Shown: piece after piece, positions 1-58,685 of the stretch
Layout of the letters: every line of letters begins with the position of its first letter
Position numbering within the stretch: position 1 is the stretch's first letter
NCBI GenBank assembly: GCA_013697785.1
Contig: JACCWE010000030.1
Location: 32,079-96,078, forward strand
DNA: 64,000 nt
Direction: 5' to 3'
DNA from: Gemmatimonadaceae bacterium
GTDB lineage: Bacteria > Gemmatimonadota > Gemmatimonadetes > Gemmatimonadales > Gemmatimonadaceae
Notes under the pieces: model-generated
Database searches by the model: none
Told to the model about the DNA's origin: nothing
The model's input: the letters and a program-made list of their open reading frames with translations, nothing else
Position numbers and translations under genes: made by a program

Positions 1-866
1 ATCAGAATGTAGAGGACGGTGCAGATTCCGAGCGAGAGCAAAATGCCGACCGGCATGTCCTTCTGCGGATTTTTCGCTTCCTGCGCGGCCGTGGATACCG
101 CATCGAAGCCGATGTATGCGAAGAACACCACGCCCGCGGCCCGCACGACGCCGGACCAGCCGAATGCACCGAACTCGCCGGTGTTCGGCGGAATGAAAGG
201 GTGCCAGTTCGCGGTGTTCACGTGCATGAAGCCGAATCCGATCACCAGGAGAACGATCGCGAGCTTCACGTACACGATCACGTTGTTGAACTTCGCCGAT
301 TCCTTGATCCCGATGACGAGAAGAGTCGTCATCGCGAGAATGAGGAACACGGCGGGAAGATTCACAATACCGCCCGGCACGCGGGTCAGCGTGTGCGTCC
401 CCTGCACGGCCAGCGGCGCCGACATGAAGCCCGCCGGCAGATCGATGCCGAGTCGGTGGAGAAACGCGCCGAAGTAGCCGGACCACCCTACCGCTACCGT
501 CGCCGCACCGAAGAGATATTCGAGAACGAGATCCCATCCGATGATCCAGGCGACGAACTCACCGAGCGTCGCGTAGCCATAGGTGTACGCGCTTCCCGCG
601 ATGGGGATCATCGACGCGAATTCCGCATAGCAGAGACCCGCGAAGAGGCATCCGACGCCTGCGATGATGAACGAGTTCATCACGCCAGGGCCGGCATACA
701 GCGCTGCCGCCGTCCCCGTCAACACGAAGATACCCGCGCCGATGATCGCGCCGATTCCCAGCAGCGTCAGGTTACTGGCGGAGAGCACGCGTTTGAGGGT
801 ATCCACGCCGGTCTCTCCCGCCTCGTCCTGAAGCACTGCGATGCTTTTTCTGGCTAACAAACCCAT
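1..866 (-). CDS. APC-family amino acid permease (cationic amino acid transporter-like), 3' end outside window
   Basis: Reverse-strand translation from ATG at 866: MGLLARKSIAVLQDEAGETGVDTLKRVLSASNLTLLGIGAIIGAGIFVLTGTAAALYAGPGV...; the GIGAIIGAGIFV motif is typical of APC permeases. Open to the window edge. Confidence 0.9.
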   Translation of the reverse strand, partial: MGLLARKSIAVLQDEAGETGVDTLKRVLSASNLTLLGIGAIIGAGIFVLTGTAAALYAGPGVMNSFIIAGVGCLFAGLCYAEFASMIPIAGSAYTYGYATLGEFVAWIIGWDLVLEYLFGAATVAVGWSGYFGAFLHRLGIDLPAGFMSAPLAVQGTHTLTRVPGGIVNLPAVFLILAMTTLLVIGIKESAKFNNVIVYVKLAIVLLVIGFGFMHVNTANWHPFIPPNTGEFGAFGWSGVVRAAGVVFFAYIGFDAVSTAAQEAKNPQKDMPVGILLSLGICTVLYIL

Positions 867-1150: not shown

Positions 1151-2452
1151 ATGGCTTCCCCCGCACTGCCCGGCATGGTCGAGAGCGTGAAGTCGAATGG
1201 CGTGGGCATCGCAGGAACGGGAACAGAGGCCGCGGGCGCACTCCGCATTCTTCTCCTCAACTACGAGTACCCGCCACTCGGCGGAGGTGCCGGCATCGCC
1301 TCGGCCGCGCTGGCCGAGCGGCTCGCGGCGCGCGGCGCGATCGTCGACGTCGTGACTTCGCGGCCGGATGGCGCGATCGATTCCGGCCGCCGCGACGGGC
1401 TCTCGTGCGTCGCGCTCGCGCCGACGCTCACGCTTTTCCGCGTGCGCAGCAAGCGACGAGGGATTCACCAAGCGGGCTTCTTCGGCGCGGGCAGCTACCT
1501 GATCTCCGCGGTGCCGGCGGCGCGACGCCTGCTTCGCACGCATCGCTACGATGTCGTTCACATTTTCTTCTCGCTTCCGACCGGTGCACTCATCCCCGCG
1601 CTGCCGCTCGGAAAGACTCCGGTCGTCGTCTCGCTCAGAGGCTCGGACGTTCCGGGATATGATGAGCGGAACGCAAAGCTCGTCTTCGCGCACAGCATGC
1701 TGAAGCCATTTACGCGCTGGATCTGGCGGCGCGCATCGCGCGTGGTTCCGGTGTGCGAGAGCCTCGGCGCGCTGGCGAGAGAGACGTCGCCGCGACTTGC
1801 GTACAGCGTGATCGGAAATGGTGTCGATCTCGATCTTTTTCGGCCCGATGACGTTGGTGCTGCGAAGATCGCATCGAAGGTTCGATGTCTCGCCGTGGGG
1901 CGGTTGATCGAGCGCAAGGGAATCGCCGATCTCTTGCGCGCATGGGCACTTCTGCCGCGCGATCGATATCAGCTCGAGATCGCGGGCGGCGGCCCGCAGG
2001 ACGCCGCGCTGCGCTCGCTCGCGAAGGAGCTCGGCGTCGACGGCGACGTGCGATTCGCGGGTCCGCTCAGCCGCGAAGAAGTCGCGCTCCGCTGTCGACG
2101 ATCCGACATGTTCGTGCTCACACCGTACGAGGAGGCCTTCGGAAATGTCTTTGCCGAAGCGATTGCGGCGGGGCTGCCGGTGATCGGGAGCAACATCGGC
2201 GCGATTCCGGAGCTTGTGGAGAATGGAGCGAACGGGATCCTGGTGCCGCCCGGCGATGCCAACGCGATCGCAGGCGCGATTCGCGAGCTTGGCGACGACG
2301 ACGCGCGTCGCACCTCGATCGTTGCGCGCAATCGCGCGCGCGCGGAGGCGATGCTCTCGTGGGACACGGCGGCCGATCGCTATCTCGCGCTGTACGCCGA
2401 GCTCCTTGGCCGCGTGCCGGCGGCGGCGGCGATGGCGGTGGCAGCTCGATGA
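1151..2452 (+). CDS. Glycosyltransferase family 4 (GT-B)
   Basis: 433 aa; N-terminal NYEYPPLGGGAG and C-terminal EAFGNVFAEAIAAGLPVIGSNIGAIPELVENGANGILVPPGD GT4 motifs. True start may be the internal MVESVK. Confidence 0.9.
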   Translation: MASPALPGMVESVKSNGVGIAGTGTEAAGALRILLLNYEYPPLGGGAGIASAALAERLAARGAIVDVVTSRPDGAIDSGRRDGLSCVALAPTLTLFRVRSKRRGIHQAGFFGAGSYLISAVPAARRLLRTHRYDVVHIFFSLPTGALIPALPLGKTPVVVSLRGSDVPGYDERNAKLVFAHSMLKPFTRWIWRRASRVVPVCESLGALARETSPRLAYSVIGNGVDLDLFRPDDVGAAKIASKVRCLAVGRLIERKGIADLLRAWALLPRDRYQLEIAGGGPQDAALRSLAKELGVDGDVRFAGPLSREEVALRCRRSDMFVLTPYEEAFGNVFAEAIAAGLPVIGSNIGAIPELVENGANGILVPPGDANAIAGAIRELGDDDARRTSIVARNRARAEAMLSWDTAADRYLALYAELLGRVPAAAAMAVAAR

Positions 2453-3777
2453 TGCCGGCGCACGCAGCGCTCGCGTATTGGCTCGCACGCGACGCACACG
2501 CGTCGGCCCGCGCGCTCGATCTCGGCGCCGAGTCGCTGCGTGCGCTCGCGGCCACGCGGATGCGCGCGCTGCTCGTCGATGCGCAGCATACGCCGTTCAA
2601 CGCCACGCGGATGCGCGACGCAGGACTCACTCGCCCCGGTGCGCTCCGCGACCTCGAGCTCCCGCTGGCGCTGCAGTCGCTCGCGCCGGTGTCGAAGCAG
2701 GAGCTCAGTACCGCCGGCGACGCGTCGCTGCGCCACGGTCGGGTCTCGGCGAGCTGGTTCTCGTCGCGATCGTCGGGATCGTCGGGCGAGCCCTTTCGCG
2801 TCTACTACGATGCGCGCGCGTGGTCGATGCTCAAGTACCTGGTCAAGATGCGCTCGAGGCGCGCCGCGGGAATGCGTCTCACTGATCGCGTCGCGATACT
2901 CGACGCGATCGATCCGCGCGTGGAAGGCAGCTCGCTGCTCGAGCGCCTGGGGCGGCTCAAGCGCATTAGTGTGTTCCGGCCTCCCGAGGAGATAGCTGCG
3001 CTACTCGCTGCCTATGCACCGGATGAGATCTATGCGCTCCCCTCGGCGCTGCTCGAGATCGCGCACGCCGCGGGCCAGGACACGCCCGAAGTTCGCGCGA
3101 AACGCATTTGCGCGAGCGGTGAGCTTTTGACCTCGCGCGCGAGCCGCGATATAACGGAAGCGTTCGGCGGACGGATCTTCGATGTCTACGGCACCTCCGA
3201 GACGAAGGAGATCGCCTGGGAGTGCTGGGCCGGATCGCGCCACATCAACGCCGACGTCGTGCACGTCGAAATACTCGGTGGGGACGGGGCCTGCGTCGAA
3301 GCCGGCGTAGAGGGAGAGGTCGTCGTGACGCTGCTCGTGAATCGTGCGATGCCGCTCATCCGCTACCGCACCGGCGATCGCGGCTCCCTGCTCTCAGCGC
3401 GATGCGAGTGCGGGCGCGCGTCGCCGCTGCTAGGCGTCGTGAGCGGCCGCGATGCCGACATGCTCGAGCTCCCGGATGGCTCAATACTTTCTCCCTATCT
3501 GCTGACGATGGCCCTCGAGCCGATTGCCGGCCTCGTGCAGTACCAGATCGCGCAGACCGAACGCGACCACCTGCGTGTGCGCGCGGTCGCAGGAAATGGC
3601 GTCGATGCCCGCGCCCTCGAAGCCGACATCGCGTGCGCGCTCGGCGCCGCACTCGCGGCCGCGGTTCGCGTGTCGACGGAGATCGTCGACCGCCTCGAGC
3701 ACGGCGCGCGCGCGAAGGTCCGCGTCGTCGAGCCGCTCCCTCGCTCGGCCGCGCGCGAGATGATGGCCGCCCGATGA
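2449..3777 (+). CDS. CapK/phenylacetate-CoA ligase-like adenylate-forming protein
   Basis: ATG at 2449 overlaps the upstream TGA; SSGSSGEPF loop, DVYGTSETKEIAWEC, MPLIRYRTGDRG, PaaK-like C-terminal region. Confidence 0.85.
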   Translation: MMPAHAALAYWLARDAHASARALDLGAESLRALAATRMRALLVDAQHTPFNATRMRDAGLTRPGALRDLELPLALQSLAPVSKQELSTAGDASLRHGRVSASWFSSRSSGSSGEPFRVYYDARAWSMLKYLVKMRSRRAAGMRLTDRVAILDAIDPRVEGSSLLERLGRLKRISVFRPPEEIAALLAAYAPDEIYALPSALLEIAHAAGQDTPEVRAKRICASGELLTSRASRDITEAFGGRIFDVYGTSETKEIAWECWAGSRHINADVVHVEILGGDGACVEAGVEGEVVVTLLVNRAMPLIRYRTGDRGSLLSARCECGRASPLLGVVSGRDADMLELPDGSILSPYLLTMALEPIAGLVQYQIAQTERDHLRVRAVAGNGVDARALEADIACALGAALAAAVRVSTEIVDRLEHGARAKVRVVEPLPRSAAREMMAAR

Positions 3778-5135
3778 GCCTCAACGTCGACGCCCTCCGC
3801 AGCGCGTACGCGATTCGCGGACACCCACACGCGAGCCGTGCCGAGATCGTGCGCTTCCGCGATCAGCAAATCCGGAAGCTCGTGCAGCACGCTTATCGCA
3901 ACGTGCCGTACTATCGTGCGCTCTGGGATGAGCAGGGCGTGCACCCCGACTGCATCCGCGGCGCCGGCGATATGTCGCTGCTGCCGACCGTCACGAAGAC
4001 ACACTTCCGGGCGACGCCCGAGATCGAGCGCGTAGCCTCGGGAATCGACCCCGAGATGCTCATCCCCGCGGCGAGCAGCGGGGCGAGCGGGCGCCCGTTC
4101 ATGATCCGGCGCAGCTGGATGGAGCACAACATCCTCTACCTGCCACGCATCCGGGCACTCCGCTCGTACGGTATCAAGCGCAGCGATCGCGCGCTCAACA
4201 TTCTCAATCCCAAGCACGTGCACGCGCGCGACAACAAGATCATCGGCCGCACCCTCGTCGCGCTCAAGCTCCTCCCGCGCCAGAAGCGCGTGAGCATCCA
4301 TCTCGACCCCGAGGCGATCGCGGCCGAGGTTCGCGCCTTTCGACCGGCGATGCTCAGCGGATATCCGAACATGCTCGCGCGCGCGTCGGAGGTGCTGAAA
4401 CGGGACCCGATTTCGCCGCCGAGCATTCGCGTCGCGCTCGTCGGCGCCGAAGCGCTCACTCCCGATCTCCGTCGCAGAATCGAGTCGCGGCTCGGCGTTC
4501 CCGTGCGCGATCAATACGGGAGCAACGAGTGCAACCTGATGGCGTGGGAGTGCGCCCACGGCGGCCCGCTGCACACGTGCGACGATACGGTGCTCGTCGA
4601 GGTCGTCGGGCCCGACGGCGCTTCTGTCGCGCCGGGTGAGACCGGCGAGGTCGTCGTCACCGCGCTCCATTCGTTCACGATGCCTCTCATCCGCTTCCGC
4701 ATCGGCGACGTCGCGGTGCAGGGCTCCGCGCAGTGCGAGTGCGGCGCACCCTTCGCGACGATTCAAAGCGTGCAGGGACGCATGCTCGACATGTTCCCGC
4801 TTCCGAGTGGACGAGTGATTCACCCGTACTACCTCAGCGAGACGCTGATCATGGACGATTCCGACTGGATCGAGAGCTTCCAGCTCACGCAGGAGCGCAT
4901 CGACAGCGTCACGATGCGTGTAGTCTCGCGCGCGGAGCCGACGGAGGCGCGACTCGCCAGGCTCCGCGCGCACGGGGCCGAGCTGCTGGGCCGTGACGTG
5001 CACTTCGAGCTTCTCGTAGTGAGCAGCATTCCATCGGAGCTGAGCGGCAAGTTCAGGCCGGCGCGCTCGCACGTCACCTCGAGTTACGATGAGGTGACTG
5101 TTCCCGCGCTTCCAGCCCCTGTGGCGTCGTCGTGA
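3774..5135 (+). CDS. Second CapK/phenylacetate-CoA ligase-like adenylate-forming protein
   Basis: ATGA overlap with the upstream stop; SSGASGRPF, YGSNECNLMAWEC, TMPLIRFRIGDVA motifs. Confidence 0.87.
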   Translation: MSLNVDALRSAYAIRGHPHASRAEIVRFRDQQIRKLVQHAYRNVPYYRALWDEQGVHPDCIRGAGDMSLLPTVTKTHFRATPEIERVASGIDPEMLIPAASSGASGRPFMIRRSWMEHNILYLPRIRALRSYGIKRSDRALNILNPKHVHARDNKIIGRTLVALKLLPRQKRVSIHLDPEAIAAEVRAFRPAMLSGYPNMLARASEVLKRDPISPPSIRVALVGAEALTPDLRRRIESRLGVPVRDQYGSNECNLMAWECAHGGPLHTCDDTVLVEVVGPDGASVAPGETGEVVVTALHSFTMPLIRFRIGDVAVQGSAQCECGAPFATIQSVQGRMLDMFPLPSGRVIHPYYLSETLIMDDSDWIESFQLTQERIDSVTMRVVSRAEPTEARLARLRAHGAELLGRDVHFELLVVSSIPSELSGKFRPARSHVTSSYDEVTVPALPAPVASS

Positions 5136-5830
5136 ACAAGTACGTGCGCGACGCAATCACCTTCCCGCACGACGCACGGCTCGCGTGGCGGCACTCGGGT
5201 GCGCGCGGCGCGTGGCGAGAGATGCGGCTTCGGACGCTCGATCGCATCTCGCGTGGCGGGCTCGCGCTCCTGTTCGAGCACGTCGTCGCCGACGTGCCGC
5301 GCCTTCCGCTGCCGGAAGGCGTGCGCATCGCGCCCTTCGCAGGCCCCGACTGGTCGCTCTTCCTCGCCCTCACCTCCGAGAAGAGAATCGAGAAATTCAA
5401 AGCGAGGATAGCGCGCGGACGCGAGTGTCTCGTGGCGTGGCGCGGCGAGCGTCCGGTCGGCTTCACCTGGGTCTCGACGCGCATGGACGCCGACATCGAG
5501 ACGTACGCGCTCCCCCTCCCCGCCGACGCGTGCTACCACTGGGACCTCTACGTCACCTCCGAGGAGCGCGGCAGCGGCGTCGGCACTGCGCTCGCTTGGG
5601 AGCGGCTGCACCATTCGCGCGAGAAATTCTATCGCATAAGCTGGCGGCTGATCGACATCGACAACCTCGCCTCGCAGCGCGGCGCCCAGAAGACGGCGAG
5701 CGCGAGCACTCGCGTGGTCGGCGAGCTGCGCTATAGAAATCTCTTCGGCCGCTCGTGGTATCGCTTCTCTCCGGGAGTGGTGAGCCCCGAGACCGCTCAG
5801 GCGCGCGCGGCGCTCATGCCCTCGACATGA
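5132..5830 (+). CDS. GNAT-like acyltransferase (paralog A)
   Basis: GTGA overlap; 232 aa; central LYVTSEERGSGVGTAL resembles the GNAT acyl-CoA-binding loop (R/QxxGxG/A). Confidence 0.65.
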   Translation: MNKYVRDAITFPHDARLAWRHSGARGAWREMRLRTLDRISRGGLALLFEHVVADVPRLPLPEGVRIAPFAGPDWSLFLALTSEKRIEKFKARIARGRECLVAWRGERPVGFTWVSTRMDADIETYALPLPADACYHWDLYVTSEERGSGVGTALAWERLHHSREKFYRISWRLIDIDNLASQRGAQKTASASTRVVGELRYRNLFGRSWYRFSPGVVSPETAQARAALMPST

Positions 5831-6978
5831 GAATCGCCGCGGCGCCGAAACCCACGACGCTCGTTCGCGTGCTTCGCAGCGCGAGCGCCGTTCCGCGCGA
5901 GCAGTGGGATGCGATTGCCCGGCGCGGCTACCATCGCCACGCGTGGTTCGTCGCTGCCGAGGCGTGCGGCGCCGAGGCGCGCCACATCGGCGTCTTCGAC
6001 AGGAAGACGCTCGTCGCCCTCATCCCGGCCTACATCGAGCGCGAGACGCTGCACGGAGATCTCCACGCGCGTTGGTTCGGGCCTGCGACTCGCGCGGCCG
6101 CGGCGATTGGCGCCGGCCTGCGTCCGTCGCTCGCGATCGGCGCGCCGATGAGCACCGGCTCTGATCCGCTCGGCAGCAGCACCGTTCTCACTGAGGAAAT
6201 CCTCGAGCACGCGCTCACCCTTCTCGAGGAGGAAGCTCGCGACGAGCATTTGACAGCGATTGTGTGGCCGTTCGTCGAGGAGAGCGACGTCGGCGTTCGC
6301 GAGGTCGCTCGCCGGCTCGGCTTTCGCGAGAGCTTCGCCAACTCTGAGGCAGTGATCGACGTAGAATGGAGCTCCCCCGAGGAGTATCTCGCCTCGCGCT
6401 CGAAGAATGTGCGGCGAACACTGCGCAACGAGCTCGCCTGGGTGCACGATCAGGGGATCCGCGTGTCCTGGGAGACGGATCTCCGCGAGCACGCCGCCAC
6501 CTTCGACGCGTTCTACCGAGCGTCCTACGTGTCGCGCAACGCGAAGGTCGCCGCGCTCGCGCCGAACTTCTTCGCGGAGCTCGCGGCGCAGCAGTCGCCA
6601 GGCATTCGCGTGCAGTGCGCGTGGCGCGGAAGCTCGCTCCTCGAGATGGCCGTCGCGCTCGACGGCGGCGGCGCGCTCGACCTATGCCTGAGCGCGCAGT
6701 CTGAGGAGACTCGCAACGGTCTCCTTTATCAGCACTGCCTCTGTTACGACCCGATCCGGGCGGCGATCGCGGGCGGGCTCGCGCGCATTCACCTGGGCCC
6801 GAGTGCGCTTCATCCCAAGGTTCTTCGCGGCGCGCGACTCACGACGCGCCTCACGCTCGCGCGCGGCATGACGCCGGTCGCGCGCGCCGCCATCGCCGTG
6901 CTCTCGCGCGCGACCGACCTGCGCAACCGCGCGAAGCAGCGTCGCCTCCTCGGCAAGCTCAGGGCAGCCGCATCGTGA
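5827..6978 (+). CDS. FemAB/BioF2-like GNAT-fold acyltransferase
   Basis: ATGA overlap; 383 aa; SRSKNVRRTLRNELAWVHDQGIRVSWE...FYRASY...LYQHCLCYDPIRAAIAGGLARIHLG resembles FemAB/peptidogalycan biosynthesis-type proteins. Confidence 0.65.
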   Translation: MRIAAAPKPTTLVRVLRSASAVPREQWDAIARRGYHRHAWFVAAEACGAEARHIGVFDRKTLVALIPAYIERETLHGDLHARWFGPATRAAAAIGAGLRPSLAIGAPMSTGSDPLGSSTVLTEEILEHALTLLEEEARDEHLTAIVWPFVEESDVGVREVARRLGFRESFANSEAVIDVEWSSPEEYLASRSKNVRRTLRNELAWVHDQGIRVSWETDLREHAATFDAFYRASYVSRNAKVAALAPNFFAELAAQQSPGIRVQCAWRGSSLLEMAVALDGGGALDLCLSAQSEETRNGLLYQHCLCYDPIRAAIAGGLARIHLGPSALHPKVLRGARLTTRLTLARGMTPVARAAIAVLSRATDLRNRAKQRRLLGKLRAAAS

Positions 6979-7628
6979 ACAAGTATCTCGTCGACGTCGC
7001 CACCTTTCCCGGCGACGCGCGCCATGCCTGGCGCACCGACGGCGCTCGCGGGCTCTGGACCGAGCTCGCCGAGCGAACGATCTTTCGCGTCGCTCGCTCG
7101 GCGCTCTACAACCTGTACGAGCGCGATCTCGCGACGATCAGGCACGTCGCTCCCCCCGACGGCGTCGAGATCCGGATGCTCGGCGCACACGAGCACGCCC
7201 TGCTCGGTGCCATCATGACGCGCCGCCGTCTCGCCCAGCTCGCGCGCGATCTTGCTAGTCGCACGATCTTCGCGGCGCTCCGCGATGGCGTCGTCGTCGG
7301 CTACTCGTGGTGGACGCCCTACTTCGACAGTGCGCTCAGCTTCGCGCCGCTCGAGCTTCCCCGGGATGCGACGTTTCACGGCTACGTCCACGTCGAGCGC
7401 GCGGAGCGAAAGCGCGGCACCGCGAGCGCACTGTTCAGCGCGGGAGAGCGCCACCTCCACGCGCAGGGCGCACGGGTGTGCTGGTTCCTCATCAAGTCGA
7501 CGAACGTCGCCGGCGCGCGCACGGCGCGCGGCCGTTGGGGCGGGCGCTCGCGGCACATAGCTGAGGTCAGCTATCGGAAGACTCTTTTTCGCACGAAGCG
7601 GCGATTGACGCTTGCGCCTTCTCAATGA
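6975..7628 (+). CDS. GNAT-like acyltransferase (paralog B)
   Basis: GTGA overlap; MNKYLVDVATFPGDARHAWRTDGARGLW matches the N-terminus of the 5132 gene (MNKYVRDAITFPHDARLAWRHSGARGAW). Confidence 0.65.
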   Translation: MNKYLVDVATFPGDARHAWRTDGARGLWTELAERTIFRVARSALYNLYERDLATIRHVAPPDGVEIRMLGAHEHALLGAIMTRRRLAQLARDLASRTIFAALRDGVVVGYSWWTPYFDSALSFAPLELPRDATFHGYVHVERAERKRGTASALFSAGERHLHAQGARVCWFLIKSTNVAGARTARGRWGGRSRHIAEVSYRKTLFRTKRRLTLAPSQ

Positions 7629-9106
7629 TCGCGCCGACGACACTTTCCGATATCACCGTGCAGCGCGATATGTCCGCGGCCCGTCCCGGACGCGGACGGC
7701 GAATCATGCTCTACGCCGCGACGCGAGGCACGACCGAGGGGATGCGCAGCATTCGCGGATTGCTGCTCGCAGTCGTCCTCGGGCCGCGCGCATTCGGCAT
7801 CTGGACGCTCTTCCGCATCTTCATGCGCTACACGCCGCTCTCCGGACTCGGCGTGCAGCGCGGGCTCGAGCTGGCGATCGTGCAGGAACACGCGCTCGGC
7901 GATGCGGAAGCGGTCGAGCGCTCGAACACGGCAGCGCGCACCACGCTAGGCTGGATCATCGCGACGGCGATCGCCACCTCACTCGTCGCGCTGATCGCTT
8001 CGTTCGTGGTCACCGACGAGCCGTGGCGACTGGCGCTCCGCGCCGTGTCGCTCGGCGTGGTTCTCGAGGAGCTGTGGGTCTACGCCACGACGTACCTCCG
8101 CGCGCTTCGCGAGCTCCGCCGCTACGCGCTCCTCGAGATCGCGAACGCGTCGCTGCATCTCGTCGCTGCGGTGGGGATGGCGAAGCTCTTCGGCCTTCGC
8201 GGCGCGATAGCGGGCTTCGTCGCAGGCGCGCTCGCGAGCCTGTGGACGGTGCGCAACTGCGCGCCCTTTCGTCCTCTGCTCCACAAGCCGGCGCTGAAAA
8301 GGCTCCTCGGCGTCGGGATACCGCTTGCGCTCTCCTCGGCTCTCACGGTCGCGCTCGGAACCGCAGATCGCCTCGTCGTCGCGGCGTATGGCGGCGCAAC
8401 GACCCTCGGGCTTTACGCCTTCGGCGTCTCGATCGCCGGCCTCGCGGCCTCGCTCGCATGGATCATCCGCACCGTGATCTTCCCGGATGTCTACGGCAGC
8501 GCGCGCGTGGCGGGAGCGGCGCCCGCGATGCGCGAGCATCTCGATCGCACCGTGCTTCCCTTCGCCTATCTCTTTCCGCCGATTCTCGGCGCGCTCGCAC
8601 TCGCGATGGAGCCAACAATGGCTCTCGCGCTCCCTCGCTATCTTCCCGCAGCATCGGCCGCGCGCATCTTCATTTTCTCGGCGGCCGCCGGGGGGATTAC
8701 CACGCTCGGCGCGATCGGCGTCGTCGCAACCGGCAAGCAGCGGGCGCTCCCGCTCCTCTCGGCATTCGCGCTCTGCATCAATCTCGCCTGCTCGATGCTC
8801 GCGCTGGAGAACGGCGGCGGGCTCGCGCTCGTGGCGGGCGGCGCGGTGCTCGCCCAGGCGACGATCGCGACCGGCGTGCTCGCGATTCTCGGCCGTCAGG
8901 CGACACTGTCGCGCGCGACGACTCTCGTGCTGAAGGGGATGCTGCCGCTCGCGTGGTGCATTGCGTGTGTCGCGCTCACGAGCCGGCTCTACGACCCGCG
9001 CAGCATCACGGGCGGAGCAGAGTCACTCGGAACGTACCTGTTGCTGCTGCTCCCGATCTCGCCGCTCATGGTGAGCGGCTTTCGCAGCGCGCGCGCGACG
9101 ATCTGA
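7625..9106 (+). CDS. Oligosaccharide flippase, Wzx/MATE-like (polysaccharide biosynthesis protein)
   Basis: 493 aa polytopic membrane protein; ATGA overlap; GTRGTTEGMRSIRGLLLAVVLGPRAFGIWTLF N-terminus and multiple hydrophobic helices. Confidence 0.8.
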   Translation: MIAPTTLSDITVQRDMSAARPGRGRRIMLYAATRGTTEGMRSIRGLLLAVVLGPRAFGIWTLFRIFMRYTPLSGLGVQRGLELAIVQEHALGDAEAVERSNTAARTTLGWIIATAIATSLVALIASFVVTDEPWRLALRAVSLGVVLEELWVYATTYLRALRELRRYALLEIANASLHLVAAVGMAKLFGLRGAIAGFVAGALASLWTVRNCAPFRPLLHKPALKRLLGVGIPLALSSALTVALGTADRLVVAAYGGATTLGLYAFGVSIAGLAASLAWIIRTVIFPDVYGSARVAGAAPAMREHLDRTVLPFAYLFPPILGALALAMEPTMALALPRYLPAASAARIFIFSAAAGGITTLGAIGVVATGKQRALPLLSAFALCINLACSMLALENGGGLALVAGGAVLAQATIATGVLAILGRQATLSRATTLVLKGMLPLAWCIACVALTSRLYDPRSITGGAESLGTYLLLLLPISPLMVSGFRSARATI

Positions 9107-9137: not shown

Positions 9138-10730
<1,593 letters not shown>

Positions 10731-38391: not shown

Positions 38392-39978
38392 ATGGACCGA
38401 ATCCTGGTCACCGGCGGAACCAGCTTTTCCGGTCTGCATCTCGTTCGAAGTCTCGTACGCGAAGGTCATGCGGTCCGCGTCATGACGCGATCACTCGAGC
38501 GCGCCCGCGCGCTCCTTCCCGCCGAAGCGGAGATCATCGCCGGCGAGATAACGGAGCGCCTCGATGTCGTCCGCGCGATGGAGGGGCGCGAGATCGTCTA
38601 CCATCTCGCCGACAGCTCGGGCGCCGGCCGCATCACCGATGCCCGCGACCACTGGCGCATCAACGTGCAGGGCACGCGGCTCGTCATGCAGGCCGCGATG
38701 GAAGCCGGCGTCCGGCGCATCGTCCACTGCGGGACGGCGCGCGTACACGGCGATACCGGCCCCGGCTCCGCAAACGAGGAGTCCGCGTTCCGCCCCACCA
38801 ACGCGTACGAGCTCACGAAGATGCAGGCCGAGCGTCTGGCGTTGCTGTTCGTGAGCGAGTGCGATCTTCCGATCGTCGTCGCGCGACCCACGTGGACCTA
38901 TGGCGCCGACGATCGCCGCTTCCGTGGCATGATGGCGTCGGTGCGCCGAGGCCACGTGGTAATTCCAGGAACGCGCACGGCGCGCGTGCACCCGATCCAC
39001 GTCGAGGATCTCGTGCGCGGGCTCAAGCTTCTCGCCACGCGCGATGCCGCGATCGGCGAGTCGTTCATCCTCGGCGGCCCCGAGCATCTCTCGCTCGATG
39101 AGCTGATCACCGTTCTCGCGCGCGCGGTGGGAGTGAAGCGCCCGCAGGTGCACATTCCCGAGCTGTCGACGCGCGCACTCGTGTGGGCGTCGGAGCGATT
39201 CGGAACTTTCGGCGGCGCAATGCGCGGTCGACTCGAATTCTTCACGAAGAGCCATGTCTTCGACATCGGCAAGGCAGCGCGTGTGCTCGGCTTCACGCCG
39301 CGGGTCTCCGTGTCGGAGGGAGTCGGACGCACCGTACTCTGGGAGGAGCGCGTCGCGCTCGTCTCGCGCGAGAAGAGCGTCGCACGCCGCCGCTCGTTGG
39401 AGATCGCGCGGCCATCCGGCGAGCTTCGCCGCCGCTACGGGCTCACCGATGATGCGCTGATCGTCGGAGCCGTCTCGCGATTCTTCCCGCTCTCCGGCAC
39501 GCGCCATCTGCTCGACGCGTTCCCTCGCGTGCACACGGCTGTGCCCTCAGCGCGGCTGCTCGTGGTGGGCGAGGGCGCGCAGCGCGAACTGCTCGAGGCT
39601 CAGGCCACCCGCCTCGGAATAGCTCCCTTCGTGATCTTCGCAGGGATGGGCGAGGATCTTCCCGCGCATCTGCGCCTGTGCGACGTCGCCGTCGTTTCTT
39701 CGACCGACGATGGACTCTCGCTCGCGGCGATGGAAGCGCTGAGCGCCGGCGTGCCGCTGATCGCCACGCGTGCGAAGGGACTCTCGTCCATCGTGCGCGA
39801 CGGCGAGAATGGACTGCTGGTTCCGCCGGGCGACGCTGATGCGCTCGCTTCCGCGATCATCCGGGTGCTGCGAAATCCGGTGCTGCGGGGAGAGCTCGCA
39901 GCGCGGATCAGCGCTGCCGGACGGGTCGGAGCATTCGACCATTTGGCCGACGCTTCGACCCGGGCCGCGAGCGGCTGA
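38392..39978 (+). CDS. Fusion: extended SDR (NAD-dependent epimerase) + GT4-type C-terminal glycosyltransferase domain
   Basis: N-term ILVTGGTSFSGLHLVRSL and YELTKMQAE; C-term VGAVSRFFPLSGTRHLLDAF...VVSSTDDGLSLAAMEALSAGVPLIATRAKGLSSIVRDGENGLLVPPGD. Confidence 0.88.
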   Translation: MDRILVTGGTSFSGLHLVRSLVREGHAVRVMTRSLERARALLPAEAEIIAGEITERLDVVRAMEGREIVYHLADSSGAGRITDARDHWRINVQGTRLVMQAAMEAGVRRIVHCGTARVHGDTGPGSANEESAFRPTNAYELTKMQAERLALLFVSECDLPIVVARPTWTYGADDRRFRGMMASVRRGHVVIPGTRTARVHPIHVEDLVRGLKLLATRDAAIGESFILGGPEHLSLDELITVLARAVGVKRPQVHIPELSTRALVWASERFGTFGGAMRGRLEFFTKSHVFDIGKAARVLGFTPRVSVSEGVGRTVLWEERVALVSREKSVARRRSLEIARPSGELRRRYGLTDDALIVGAVSRFFPLSGTRHLLDAFPRVHTAVPSARLLVVGEGAQRELLEAQATRLGIAPFVIFAGMGEDLPAHLRLCDVAVVSSTDDGLSLAAMEALSAGVPLIATRAKGLSSIVRDGENGLLVPPGDADALASAIIRVLRNPVLRGELAARISAAGRVGAFDHLADASTRAASG

Positions 39979-51352: not shown

Positions 51353-51661
51353 CTACGCCCGGCACGCTTCGCGCTCGGCGAACTCCCGTACGATCTCCGC
51401 CGTGATCGTAGTAGCGTGATTTCCGGCGGGGAGGCGCTCTTCCACATAACGTTCCCACGTCCCGACGGGAATACGGCGGCCGATAATGTCCTCGATGCGA
51501 AAAACAAGGTCGAGAAAATCGATTGATTCGGCGCCAAGATCTCGCATGAGCGCGGACTCCGAACGAATGAGATCGTGAGGGACTGTCAGTACTTCGGCAA
51601 TGAGATCCCGCACGACATCGATGGGAAAATTTGCGGTCACCACCGGCGTATCAGGGCACAT
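51353..51661 (-). CDS. Acyl carrier protein
   Basis: 102 aa; DLGAESIDFLDLVFRIEDIIG phosphopantetheine attachment motif. Confidence 0.92.
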   Translation of the reverse strand: MCPDTPVVTANFPIDVVRDLIAEVLTVPHDLIRSESALMRDLGAESIDFLDLVFRIEDIIGRRIPVGTWERYVEERLPAGNHATTITAEIVREFAEREACRA

Positions 51662-52941
51662 GCGTTTTGACCTCCAAATCCGAAGGAGTTGGTGAGTGCC
51701 ACGTCGAAGCGCTTACCGCGTGCGTAATTTGGCACGTAATCGAGATCGCACTCCGGATCCAGATGCTCGTAGTTGATCGTCGGAGGAAGAAAGTCATCCA
51801 TCATCGCCAGCGTAGTAGCGACGTATTCCACCGCGCCCGCTCCTGCGAGCAGATGTCCGATCATGGATTTGGTCGAGCTTACGGGAACTTGAAATGCGTG
51901 GATACCCAGAGCGACCTTGATAGCACGCGTTTCGACGCGGTCATTCATGAGTGTGCCCGTACCATGCGCGTTGATGTACTGCACATCGGCGACGCTGGCG
52001 TCGGCGTCAGCCAACGCGAGCGCGATTGCTCGCGCACCGCCAGAGGCGTCGGGCCGCTCGTCGGTGATACGGTACGCATCGCATGTCACTGCGCATCCAG
52101 CGGCCTCCGCAAGAATGGTCGCGCGGCGCGCCATGGCCATGCTTTCGCGCTCGAGCACCACGATGCCCGCACCCTCTCCGATGACGAACCCATCGCGGTC
52201 CCGATCAAAAGGGCGGCTGGCTGCTGCCGGTGCATCGTTCGCGCGGGAGAGTGTGCCTAGCATTGAGAAGCCGAGCACCCCCACCGGATTTACCATTGCG
52301 TCGGTGCCTCCGGCAAAAACGACGTCGGCATCGCCCTGCTGTATCATGCGCATGCCCTGTGCGATTGCCTGTGTCCCCGACGTGCAGGCCGTAGTGATGG
52401 TGGAGTTTGGGCCGCGCGCGCCCTGCTGGATCGCCACGTGAGCGGCGGCGAGGTTCGGCAAGCCACGCAGGCTCACGATCGGATTTACCCGTCTTCCATA
52501 TGCGCGGGCGAATGCGGGTATGTCGAACTCGGACGTGTCATCCAGCCTGGCGGCCTCGATAATCGCCTTGGCCTGCGACGAGATCATATCCATGTCCACC
52601 GGCCCCATGCCGCCCGCGCCGATACACACGCCGATTCGCTCGGAATCCACATCGCGCGCATCCAGTCCCGAGTGGCGACGTGCGAGCGCGGCGGCGACGA
52701 CCGCGAATTGCGTCGCGCGGCTCATGTGTTTCACCATTTTTCGTGGAACGACGAAATCACCGACGCACAGTCGCGACGATGCAATCTCGGCTGCGATTCG
52801 CGTGTCGAAACCTTCACAACAGAAGGCGCTGATCGGCCCCACGCCGGATCGACCCTCGCGCAACGCAGCGGAGAAGGCCAGCGCGCCGATTGCGGTGGGC
52901 GCGACCACGCCCAGGCCCGTGATCGCGACGCGTTCACGCAT
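51637..52941 (-). CDS. Beta-ketoacyl-ACP synthase (KAS/FabF-like)
   Basis: TTACTSGTQAIAQG (Cys), NAHGTGTLMNDRVE (His), STKSMIGHLLAGAGAVE (His). ORF extends to 52962. Confidence 0.93.
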   Translation of the reverse strand: MRERVAITGLGVVAPTAIGALAFSAALREGRSGVGPISAFCCEGFDTRIAAEIASSRLCVGDFVVPRKMVKHMSRATQFAVVAAALARRHSGLDARDVDSERIGVCIGAGGMGPVDMDMISSQAKAIIEAARLDDTSEFDIPAFARAYGRRVNPIVSLRGLPNLAAAHVAIQQGARGPNSTITTACTSGTQAIAQGMRMIQQGDADVVFAGGTDAMVNPVGVLGFSMLGTLSRANDAPAAASRPFDRDRDGFVIGEGAGIVVLERESMAMARRATILAEAAGCAVTCDAYRITDERPDASGGARAIALALADADASVADVQYINAHGTGTLMNDRVETRAIKVALGIHAFQVPVSSTKSMIGHLLAGAGAVEYVATTLAMMDDFLPPTINYEHLDPECDLDYVPNYARGKRFDVALTNSFGFGGQNACALIRRW

Positions 52942-53404
52942 GGGCGATCGCCGGGTATTCACCGAGCCACGTCGCCATCATCTGCCGAAAAGCCATATCG
53001 TACGAGGGCGCCATCAGCGAGCACGGCTCCACTAGCCGAAACGTCATGCGCGCGAGGGCGACGTCGTCTCCCGCACGTGATGCGCGCGCGCGCACTCGCG
53101 CCACGTCGACTGCGAGTTCTTCGATCTCAATGTCGAGGATCAGGCTGTCGCCGGGGCGCGCAAAGGAGACAAAACGCGCGCGCTCGATGGAGGCCATGAC
53201 GGCCATTCGACGCTCGTTCGCGCTCTTCCAGAGGAGAACGCCAGCCGTCTGCGCGAGTGCTTCCAGGAGAAACACTCCCGGCAGCACGGGGTTCCCCGGA
53301 AAGTGCTCGCCCAGTGCCTCATCGCGCAGGGAGACGCACTTGATCGCGCTGGCGCATCGGCCCGGTTCGAGCGACACGATGCGGTCCACGTGTGCGTGGT
53401 GCAT
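52934..53404 (-). CDS. 3-hydroxyacyl-ACP dehydratase (FabZ-like)
   Basis: HFPGNPVLPGVFLLEALAQTAGVLLW hot-dog active-site motif. Confidence 0.9.
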   Translation of the reverse strand: MHHAHVDRIVSLEPGRCASAIKCVSLRDEALGEHFPGNPVLPGVFLLEALAQTAGVLLWKSANERRMAVMASIERARFVSFARPGDSLILDIEIEELAVDVARVRARASRAGDDVALARMTFRLVEPCSLMAPSYDMAFRQMMATWLGEYPAIAHA

Positions 53405-57239: not shown

Positions 57240-58232
57240 TCACCCCTCGCCCGCGTGGATCTCCGAGTCATCGCCCACCGTCACCTGCCCCCTCACGCCC
57301 TCGAGCACTACCCCATCACCCACGAGTGAGCCCGTGAGCTCGCAATCCGAGATCTGCGACTTGCTCCCTATGATCGAGTCGCGTAAAACAGACCGCTCGA
57401 TCACCGTGCCGGCGAGAATGGAGACATTCGGCCCAACCGTCGCATCGGTGAGCGTCACGCCTTCTTCGATGTAGACCGGATCGATGATCTTCGATCCCGC
57501 GGCCACCGCCGCCGGCTTCCGCGCGCGGCCGCGCTCGAGCATCGCGCGATTGGTCTCGAGCAGTGTGTCGAGCTTCCCCGCGTCGTACCACCCCTCCACG
57601 TCCACGACCTTTATCCTCGCGCCGTGGTCGATCATGTACTGGAAGGCATCGGTGAGATAGTACTCACCCTTGTTCGCCGGTTGCTTCATCACGTACGAAA
57701 TCCCCTCGTACAGCAGCTTCCAGTTCTTGATGTAGTAGAGCCCGATGTTCGCGCGCTTCGAGATCGGCGTCGACGGCTTCTCGACGATCTTCGTCATGAA
57801 GCCGTTCGCATCCGTAAGCACCACGCCGAAGCGCTGATAGTCCTCGACCTCCTTCACCCAGATGATGCCGTCGGCATCAGTCGTGTGAACGAGCGAGAGA
57901 TCCGCATCGAAGATCGTGTCGACGAAGATGATGAGCACCGGCTGATCGACGTACGGCCGCGCGAGATCCACCGCCGTCGCCGTGCCGTTTTGCACCGTCT
58001 GCTCGACGAACACCGCGGGAAAATCGTATTCCTTGCGCGCGTATTCCTCGACCTTCTCCTTCAGATGCCCGGTGATGTAGACGATCTGCTCGATGCCGCC
58101 GAGCGACTTGAGGTCGTCGAGGAGATACGAGATGACCGGCTTGCCGGCGACCTTGAGCATCGGCTTCGGCGTGAGATGCGTGTGCGGACGGAGACGCGTC
58201 CCCTTCCCCGCGAGTGGAATGATCACCTTCAT
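57240..58232 (-). CDS. Sugar nucleotidyltransferase (glucose-1-phosphate thymidylyl/uridylyltransferase-like, GlmU-like)
   Basis: IIPLAGKGTRLRPHTHLTPKPMLKVAGKPVISYLL; left-handed-beta-helix-type C-term IEEGVTLTDATVGPNVSILAGTVIERSVLRDSIIGSKSQI. Confidence 0.93.
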   Translation of the reverse strand: MKVIIPLAGKGTRLRPHTHLTPKPMLKVAGKPVISYLLDDLKSLGGIEQIVYITGHLKEKVEEYARKEYDFPAVFVEQTVQNGTATAVDLARPYVDQPVLIIFVDTIFDADLSLVHTTDADGIIWVKEVEDYQRFGVVLTDANGFMTKIVEKPSTPISKRANIGLYYIKNWKLLYEGISYVMKQPANKGEYYLTDAFQYMIDHGARIKVVDVEGWYDAGKLDTLLETNRAMLERGRARKPAAVAAGSKIIDPVYIEEGVTLTDATVGPNVSILAGTVIERSVLRDSIIGSKSQISDCELTGSLVGDGVVLEGVRGQVTVGDDSEIHAGEG

Positions 58233-58621
58233 GGCTTGCTCGTTCCTTCGCGACCGTAGCGGTCCGTCAGCCGGACCACGTCATCGAGTTCGGGGGTCGA
58301 TGCCTCGAGAACATCGCAGTCCGTCACGGCTTCCATGTAATGAATGGTGTGGGGAGTAATTCGAAATGCATCGCCGACTCCAAGGTGCATGTCCGTCATC
58401 GTCTCTCCGGTCTTGACCCAGTACTTGAGCTGCCCCGACAACAGATACACCGTCTCATCCTTCCGCTCGTGATACTGCACGGAGAGTGCGTGCCCGGCGT
58501 TGATGTGCAGGATCTTTCCCACGTAGCGGTCGGTCCGCGCCCAGATGATTTCGTGTCCCCACGGTTTGGCGACGCGTGTCACCTCGGTTGGTCCCGACTT
58601 CGGTGGCGGCGTCGTGGTCAT
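58229..58621 (-). CDS. Cupin (mannose-6-phosphate isomerase type II-like)
   Basis: RVAKPWGHEIIWA, VQYHERKDETVYLLSGQ, ITPHTIHYMEAVTD. ORF extends to 58657. Confidence 0.88.
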   Translation of the reverse strand: MTTTPPPKSGPTEVTRVAKPWGHEIIWARTDRYVGKILHINAGHALSVQYHERKDETVYLLSGQLKYWVKTGETMTDMHLGVGDAFRITPHTIHYMEAVTDCDVLEASTPELDDVVRLTDRYGREGTSKP

Positions 58622-58685
58622 CGTGGGTGAAATCCGAAAGTGAGTTGAGTACGACATCCGCTGACTGGTAGAGCGTAAGAGACTC

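Follow-up and report, generated by a model that had tools for sequence, protein, structure and literature searches.

A compact operon of predicted acid-activating ligases, acyl or aminoacyl transferases and a flippase beside guaB in a Gemmatimonadaceae bacterium

A seven-gene operon and its insertion site

We analyzed a 64,000-nucleotide stretch of contig JACCWE010000030.1 from a Gemmatimonadaceae bacterium (assembly GCA_013697785.1; G000 in our genome set), hereafter called the window, in which seven genes on the plus strand form a compact operon (Table 1). A preliminary description, made from the sequence alone, had listed these seven open reading frames together with six 4-nucleotide overlaps joining them, and all are present: four of the overlaps (2449, 3774, 5827, 7625) read ATGA and the other two (5132, 6975) GTGA. 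Third-position GC content is 0.77-0.86 across all seven genes. This type of overlap is ordinary in the host genome, because 17 of 51 other close same-strand gene pairs also have one; at that rate, six consecutive overlaps would be unusual, with an estimated probability of about 0.001. Scanning the operon for promoters and terminators gave no signal above chance.

Table 1. Genes of the operon and its two borders, with positions in the window.
Feature	Position	Strand	Basis of assignment
GT4 family glycosyltransferase	1151..2452	+	Pfam, EX7E motif
CapK1, PaaK-like adenylate-forming ligase	2449..3777	+	NCBIfam, PDB sequence matches, alignment
CapK2, PaaK-like adenylate-forming ligase	3774..5135	+	Pfam, PDB sequence match, alignment
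GNAT A, N-acyltransferase	5132..5830	+	Pfam, AlphaFold model
FemAB_like (Fem-fold, tandem-GNAT) aminoacyl or acyl transferase	5827..6978	+	Pfam, model fold
GNAT B, paralogue of GNAT A	6975..7628	+	Pfam, alignment, tblastn
Wzx-type (MOP superfamily) flippase	7625..9106	+	Pfam, hydropathy
guaB (IMP dehydrogenase, IMPDH), right border, outside the system	9138..10682	-	514-aa open frame
Part of an APC amino-acid permease gene, left border, outside the system	~1..857	-	L019 orthologue

The gene order is conserved in the relatives that were checked. Three relatives from within the genus (L006, L007, L008) carry the genes in identical order, and all 16 of their readable junctions are 4-nucleotide overlaps (the L008 contig stops within FemAB). 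The operon proteins are 62-86% identical across these relatives at a synonymous divergence of about 0.6-1.0, and the pairwise ratios of non-synonymous to synonymous divergence (dN/dS) of the seven genes range from 0.15 to 0.40, which indicates that the genes are under purifying selection.

The extent of the permease gene on the left border is approximate, as it has no clean translated frame in the window; its L019 orthologue matches AA_permease_2 at 4.1e-56. The guaB genes of the genus relatives are 93-97% identical and likewise adjoin the block. The guaB locus was retrieved from 28 further family genomes that do not have the block, and in 24 of them guaB directly adjoins the permease gene; the block is therefore an insertion within one genus. 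FemAB is found in 5/5 genus members, at the guaB site wherever the contig extends far enough.

A different arrangement is seen in G200 (L009 and L019), where FemAB stands alone between guaB and the permease gene (L019:9695-10885, contig C128). This gene is intact, with pairwise dN/dS of 0.17-0.33, and its closest counterpart, in the full carrier L007, is 79% identical to it at a pairwise dN/dS of 0.17. No orthologue of GT4, CapK1 or Wzx was found anywhere in the G200 genome at the thresholds used, which argues against relocation of these genes. It looks as though six genes were lost around a retained FemAB; an assembly error is the less probable explanation.

The block is separate from the other glycan genes of the host. 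As the preliminary description had it, NCBIfam and Pfam matched none of the seven proteins to a priming transferase, Wzy, Wzz, Wza or ligase family. On contig C161 (L066:3292-16558) lies a complete locus in which Wza, Wzc and Wzy are accompanied by a priming transferase, glycosyltransferases and a separate Wzx, and a related locus is found in G198 (L070). The Wzx of the operon is therefore an additional one. Priming (Bac_transf) transferases of the host are encoded on C161 and C153. The block is free-standing between guaB and the permease gene, and the idea that it is part of a larger capsule locus is rejected on the empty site in the 24 genomes together with the full capsule-type locus on C161.

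The window contains three further loci of note. In one open reading frame (38392-39978, plus strand) an NAD-dependent epimerase and a GT4 glycosyltransferase domain are fused. A sugar-1-phosphate nucleotidyltransferase gene adjoins one for a mannose-6-phosphate-isomerase-like cupin (57240-58657, minus strand). Additionally, about 42 kb from the operon, an acyl carrier protein gene is joined by a 4-nucleotide-type junction to a beta-ketoacyl synthase gene (51353-52962, minus strand); this pair is possibly a small polyketide or fatty-acid cluster.

Families and predicted folds of the seven proteins

The enzyme families first proposed for the seven proteins are broadly right, with qualifications for CapK1 and the FemAB protein. 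GT4 matches Glycos_transf_1 (1.8e-35) and Glyco_transf_4 (1.4e-19) in Pfam and has its EX7E motif at residue 328. CapK2 matches the Pfam AMP-binding domain (9.3e-11) and, among PDB sequences, phenylacetate-CoA ligase 4r1l (9.4e-31). CapK1 had been described as CapK-like, and although the Pfam search gave no match for it, it is of the PaaK type by its similarity to NCBIfam NF045666 (2.9e-31, under the family cut-off) and to the PaaK-type ligases 9s3l (1.2e-17) and 6siw (4.1e-16) in the PDB. In a 12-sequence alignment of CapK1 and CapK2 proteins from several families, C259, H265, C319 and C321 are invariant and in CapK1 likely form a metal site. The alignment also contains the adenylate-forming motifs SSGSSG (P-loop-like), YG..E and R..GD and an almost invariant C-terminal lysine (K423 in CapK1), which is missing only in the CapK1 of L017. 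We observed that the gene for this protein (L017:11673-12872, genome G036) lacks the C-terminal lysine region after an apparent frame change, which may be real or due to assembly.

GNAT A and GNAT B match Acetyltransf_1 in Pfam (3.4e-8 and 4.8e-5, respectively) and are paralogues with 33% identity that have kept the acyl-CoA loop, in which R146, G149 and A153 of GNAT A are invariant in the alignment. The AlphaFold model of GNAT A (predicted local distance difference test score, pLDDT, 87) folds as a GNAT and has a long helix at its N-terminus (residues 3-39). The flippase matches Polysacc_synt_3 (1.4e-14) and Polysacc_synt (8.9e-10) in Pfam and has at least 11 membrane spans predicted by hydropathy.

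The FemAB protein belongs to PF04339 FemAB_like (6e-17) rather than to PF02388 FemAB, which was not matched in the Pfam search, and no PDB relative was detectable by sequence. Its predicted model (pLDDT 78) adopts the tandem-GNAT Fem fold. Foldseek relates this model to FemX (2.5e-10, probability 1.00, TM-score 0.54-0.60) and to Sbb17, an aminoacyl-tRNA-dependent peptide synthase (6.7e-10); the nearest folds, namely FemX, Sbb17/Sba18 and MprF, are all aminoacyl transferases. The models of GNAT A and the FemAB protein also resemble mycothiol synthase, a GNAT of the clavulanic pathway and streptothricin peptide synthases.

Related loci in other families

We searched for relatives of the operon in 395 genomes drawn from the phylum Gemmatimonadota. 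GT4 orthologues (E <= 1e-60) are present in 12 genomes, CapK1 (E <= 1e-40) in eight and Wzx (E <= 1e-20) in seven; some weaker CapK1 matches, including those in G302, are CapK2-like rather than true CapK1. A single strong GT4 orthologue is encoded in 9/10 of the genomes with cluster genes that were examined, G200 being the one without. No plasmid-borne relatives of GNAT A were found, and the same search with CapK1 gave distant PaaK-like proteins only. Outside the phylum, the survey consisted of one contig scan with the FemAB sequence alone, which is sensitive to close relatives only.

A related locus in G036 (L017) encodes GT4, CapK1, BKACE (beta-keto-acid cleavage enzyme), FemAB, CapK2, a PGM1-type ATP-grasp protein, a BioF2-type GNAT, GNAT A and Wzx. 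In G265 (L057) the order is GT4, CapK1, BKACE, PGM1-type ATP-grasp, Mur ligase, BioF2-type GNAT and FemAB, and in G355 (L047) it is GT4, CapK1, a second ATP-grasp, CapK2, PGM1-type ATP-grasp, GNAT A and Wzx; both loci run into a contig end. CapK1, GT4, Wzx, a BioF2-type GNAT and GNAT A lie in mixed orientation in G028 (L034), with a DegT-type protein encoded nearby, and in G011 one contig ends with GT4, CapK1 and only the first part of Wzx, two GNATs being encoded on another contig. GT4 and CapK1 are adjacent and co-directional in eight loci from three families and divergent in a fourth family. By Pfam, ATP-grasp domains are absent from the window block and present in L017 and L057; in L047, L085 and L088 they were recognized by similarity to the L017 protein. 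The PGM1_C and Pre-ATP-grasp domains of these loci presumably point to pheganomycin-type peptide ligases.

Genus g19 carries partial sets: GT4-PGM1-Mur in G158, GT4-BKACE in G395, GT4-PGM1 in G108, GNAT A-Wzx in G251, and GT4 alone in G262 and G012. The same rhodanese-like gene adjoins most of these sets (L045, L085-L089), and a gene for a large outer-membrane-type protein lies upstream of the cluster remnant in most of the same loci. The partial sets near one chromosomal site apparently represent a stepwise erosion down to GT4 alone. Taken together, these loci show a recurring set of outer genes (GT4, CapK1, GNAT A, Wzx) around a middle in which predicted amide- or peptide-bond-forming enzymes replace one another.

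Proposed product, alternatives and known systems

The families and the gene neighborhoods suggest, and we consider it rather probable, that this compact, patchily distributed operon makes a lipid-linked glycan decorated with acyl groups, aminoacyl groups or both. GT4 would add a sugar to a lipid-linked acceptor supplied by housekeeping or other priming enzymes, and CapK1 and CapK2 would convert two carboxylic acids to adenylates or CoA thioesters. Such activated acyl groups could then be passed by GNAT A and GNAT B to an amine of the sugar or of an attached amino acid, and an amide-linked aminoacyl (or acyl) unit could be added by the Fem-fold protein; all three transferases would form amide (or ester) bonds. 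Finally, Wzx would flip the finished unit outward. We take the product to be a lipid-linked glycan from what is generally known of these families. The theme of acid activation, transfer to a sugar or amine and flipping fits the families and is supported further by the amide-forming enzymes predicted at related loci.

Several observations weigh against this proposal. The product and substrates are read from enzyme families, and a polymer would be unlikely since the block has one glycosyltransferase and no priming enzyme. An amphipathic membrane-anchor helix at the N-termini of GNAT A and GNAT B scored no better than shuffled sequences (p 0.62 and 0.15, respectively). Gene retention is not all-or-none: G200 keeps only FemAB, G158, G108 and G395 have GT4 with ligase or BKACE genes and neither CapK1 nor Wzx, and G262 and G012 retain a lone GT4. 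The preliminary description had pictured a decorated lipid-linked sugar built by one stoichiometrically coupled module. The free-standing block, its conserved order within the genus and the fit of the families agree with such a module, but strict stoichiometric coupling is overstated because of the eroded loci: one full carrier has as its closest relative a genome with FemAB alone, and genus g19 descends through partial sets to GT4 alone.

We advance more tentatively, as a possibility somewhat short of probable, that GT4, CapK1, GNAT A and Wzx constitute an undescribed, horizontally spread cassette for peptidyl- or acyl-amide glycolipids. The amide-building middle, comprising FemAB, PGM1-type ATP-grasp, Mur ligase, BKACE and BioF2-type GNATs, would be swapped between lineages, perhaps in the manner of an O-antigen variable region.

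An unlikely alternative is that the operon makes a soluble specialized metabolite, such as an acylated amino-sugar or a pseudopeptide glycoside, with the Wzx-like protein as its exporter. The pheganomycin-type ATP-grasp ligase, Mur-type ligase and BKACE of the relatives are consistent with this, as are the resemblance of the GNAT A and FemAB models to mycothiol, clavulanic and streptothricin enzymes and the patchy distribution and stand-alone insertion, which are typical of metabolite clusters. However, Polysacc_synt-type flippases are, as far as we know the family, associated with lipid-linked glycans, the block contains no regulator, resistance gene, non-ribosomal peptide synthetase or carrier protein, and its gene order is stable and selected within the genus. 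It is quite improbable that the operon is an accessory set decorating the repeat unit of the Wzx/Wzy polysaccharides of C161 or C153, in which case the product would be an ordinary modified capsule or exopolysaccharide. All six genomes tested, including G200, do encode priming transferases and Wzy_C proteins outside the block, and HfsK, a Fem-like GNAT, is the proposed modifier of the Caulobacter holdfast polysaccharide (PMC5362036), but a Wzx is already encoded at the C161 locus, to which the block adds a second, and G200 retains its priming and Wzy genes while missing six of the seven operon genes. That there is no single pathway, and that glycan-modifying genes acting on separate substrates were gathered by transfer, is very improbable: the lone, selectively constrained FemAB of G200, the lone GT4 genes and the partial sets of G158, G395 and G108 speak for it, but all junctions overlap, the order is kept at considerable synonymous divergence and the GT4-CapK1 pairing recurs across families.

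Gemmatimonadota are common soil bacteria, and to our knowledge their surface-glycan biochemistry is almost wholly undescribed; a literature search found no publication on a Gemmatimonadota exopolysaccharide with Wzx. With its clear empty site, the full and eroded versions found among close relatives and swappable amide-forming enzymes, the operon is a tractable system for finding glycolipids decorated with amino acids or peptides, and together with its relatives it offers a source of transferases for making acyl- and peptidyl-amide glycolipids.

We know of no description of a GT4-CapK1-GNAT-Wzx framework with exchangeable amide ligases in the open-access literature, other phyla having been barely surveyed. 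The operon resembles Wzx/Wzy capsule or O-antigen loci in its Wzx-type flippase, GT4 and acyl-modifying genes, and differs from them in having no priming transferase, polymerase, chain-length (Wzz/Wzc) or export (Wza) protein. It is not an exosortase (XrtA/PEP-CTERM) exopolysaccharide locus, as no XrtA-associated family was matched at NCBIfam cut-offs: FemAB has no NCBIfam match and so is not the XrtA-associated FemAB, GT4 scores 118 bits against the 409 needed for stp2, and no exosortase-associated ligase family is among the matches of the seven proteins. CapK1 and CapK2 share the adenylate-forming family, the Cys/His set and the C-terminal lysine with PaaK, but at 58.8 and 120.1 bits they are far under the TIGR02155 (PaaK equivalog) cut-off of 646.3, and neither qualifies as the PaaK phenylacetate-CoA ligase equivalog. 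The predicted fold of the FemAB protein is like those of the aminoacyl-tRNA-dependent transferases FemX, MprF and Sbb17, at about 12-15% identity.

The system had been called a candidate undescribed one, which is only partly right: loci for aminoacyl- or peptidyl-glycans that have FemAB, ATP-grasp proteins or both have been published (PMC5207246, PMC4000134), and so has a Fem-like exopolysaccharide modifier (PMC5362036). The latter, HfsK, is a proposed N-acyltransferase on a holdfast polysaccharide precursor; it shares with the operon a Fem-like GNAT, proposed to act on exopolysaccharide, and differs in its c-di-GMP-binding C-terminus and in lying outside any CapK/GNAT/Wzx operon of this kind (PMC5362036). 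CA_C2195-type neighborhoods group glycosyltransferases with an ATP-grasp aminoacyl ligase in a single operon, which in several cases also has an O-antigen-type exporter; peptide transfer onto an amino sugar is proposed for them. They differ in carrying sugar-nucleotide genes and DUF4910, and the text searched mentions neither CapK nor FemAB (PMC4000134). In the Clostridioides difficile type B flagellin locus (CDR20291_0241-0247), the gene for a FemAB-superfamily protein lies beside those for glycosyltransferases and an ATP-grasp ligase, and when the ATP-grasp gene is mutated the flagellin glycan lacks its terminal peptidylamido-sugar (PMC5207246). This locus shares the combination of a FemAB-superfamily protein and a glycosyltransferase with the window operon, whereas it is fliC-linked, uses GT2-type transferases and has no described CapK or flippase (PMC5207246); the window operon, unlike this locus, has no ATP-grasp protein, but its relatives in other families of Gemmatimonadota do.

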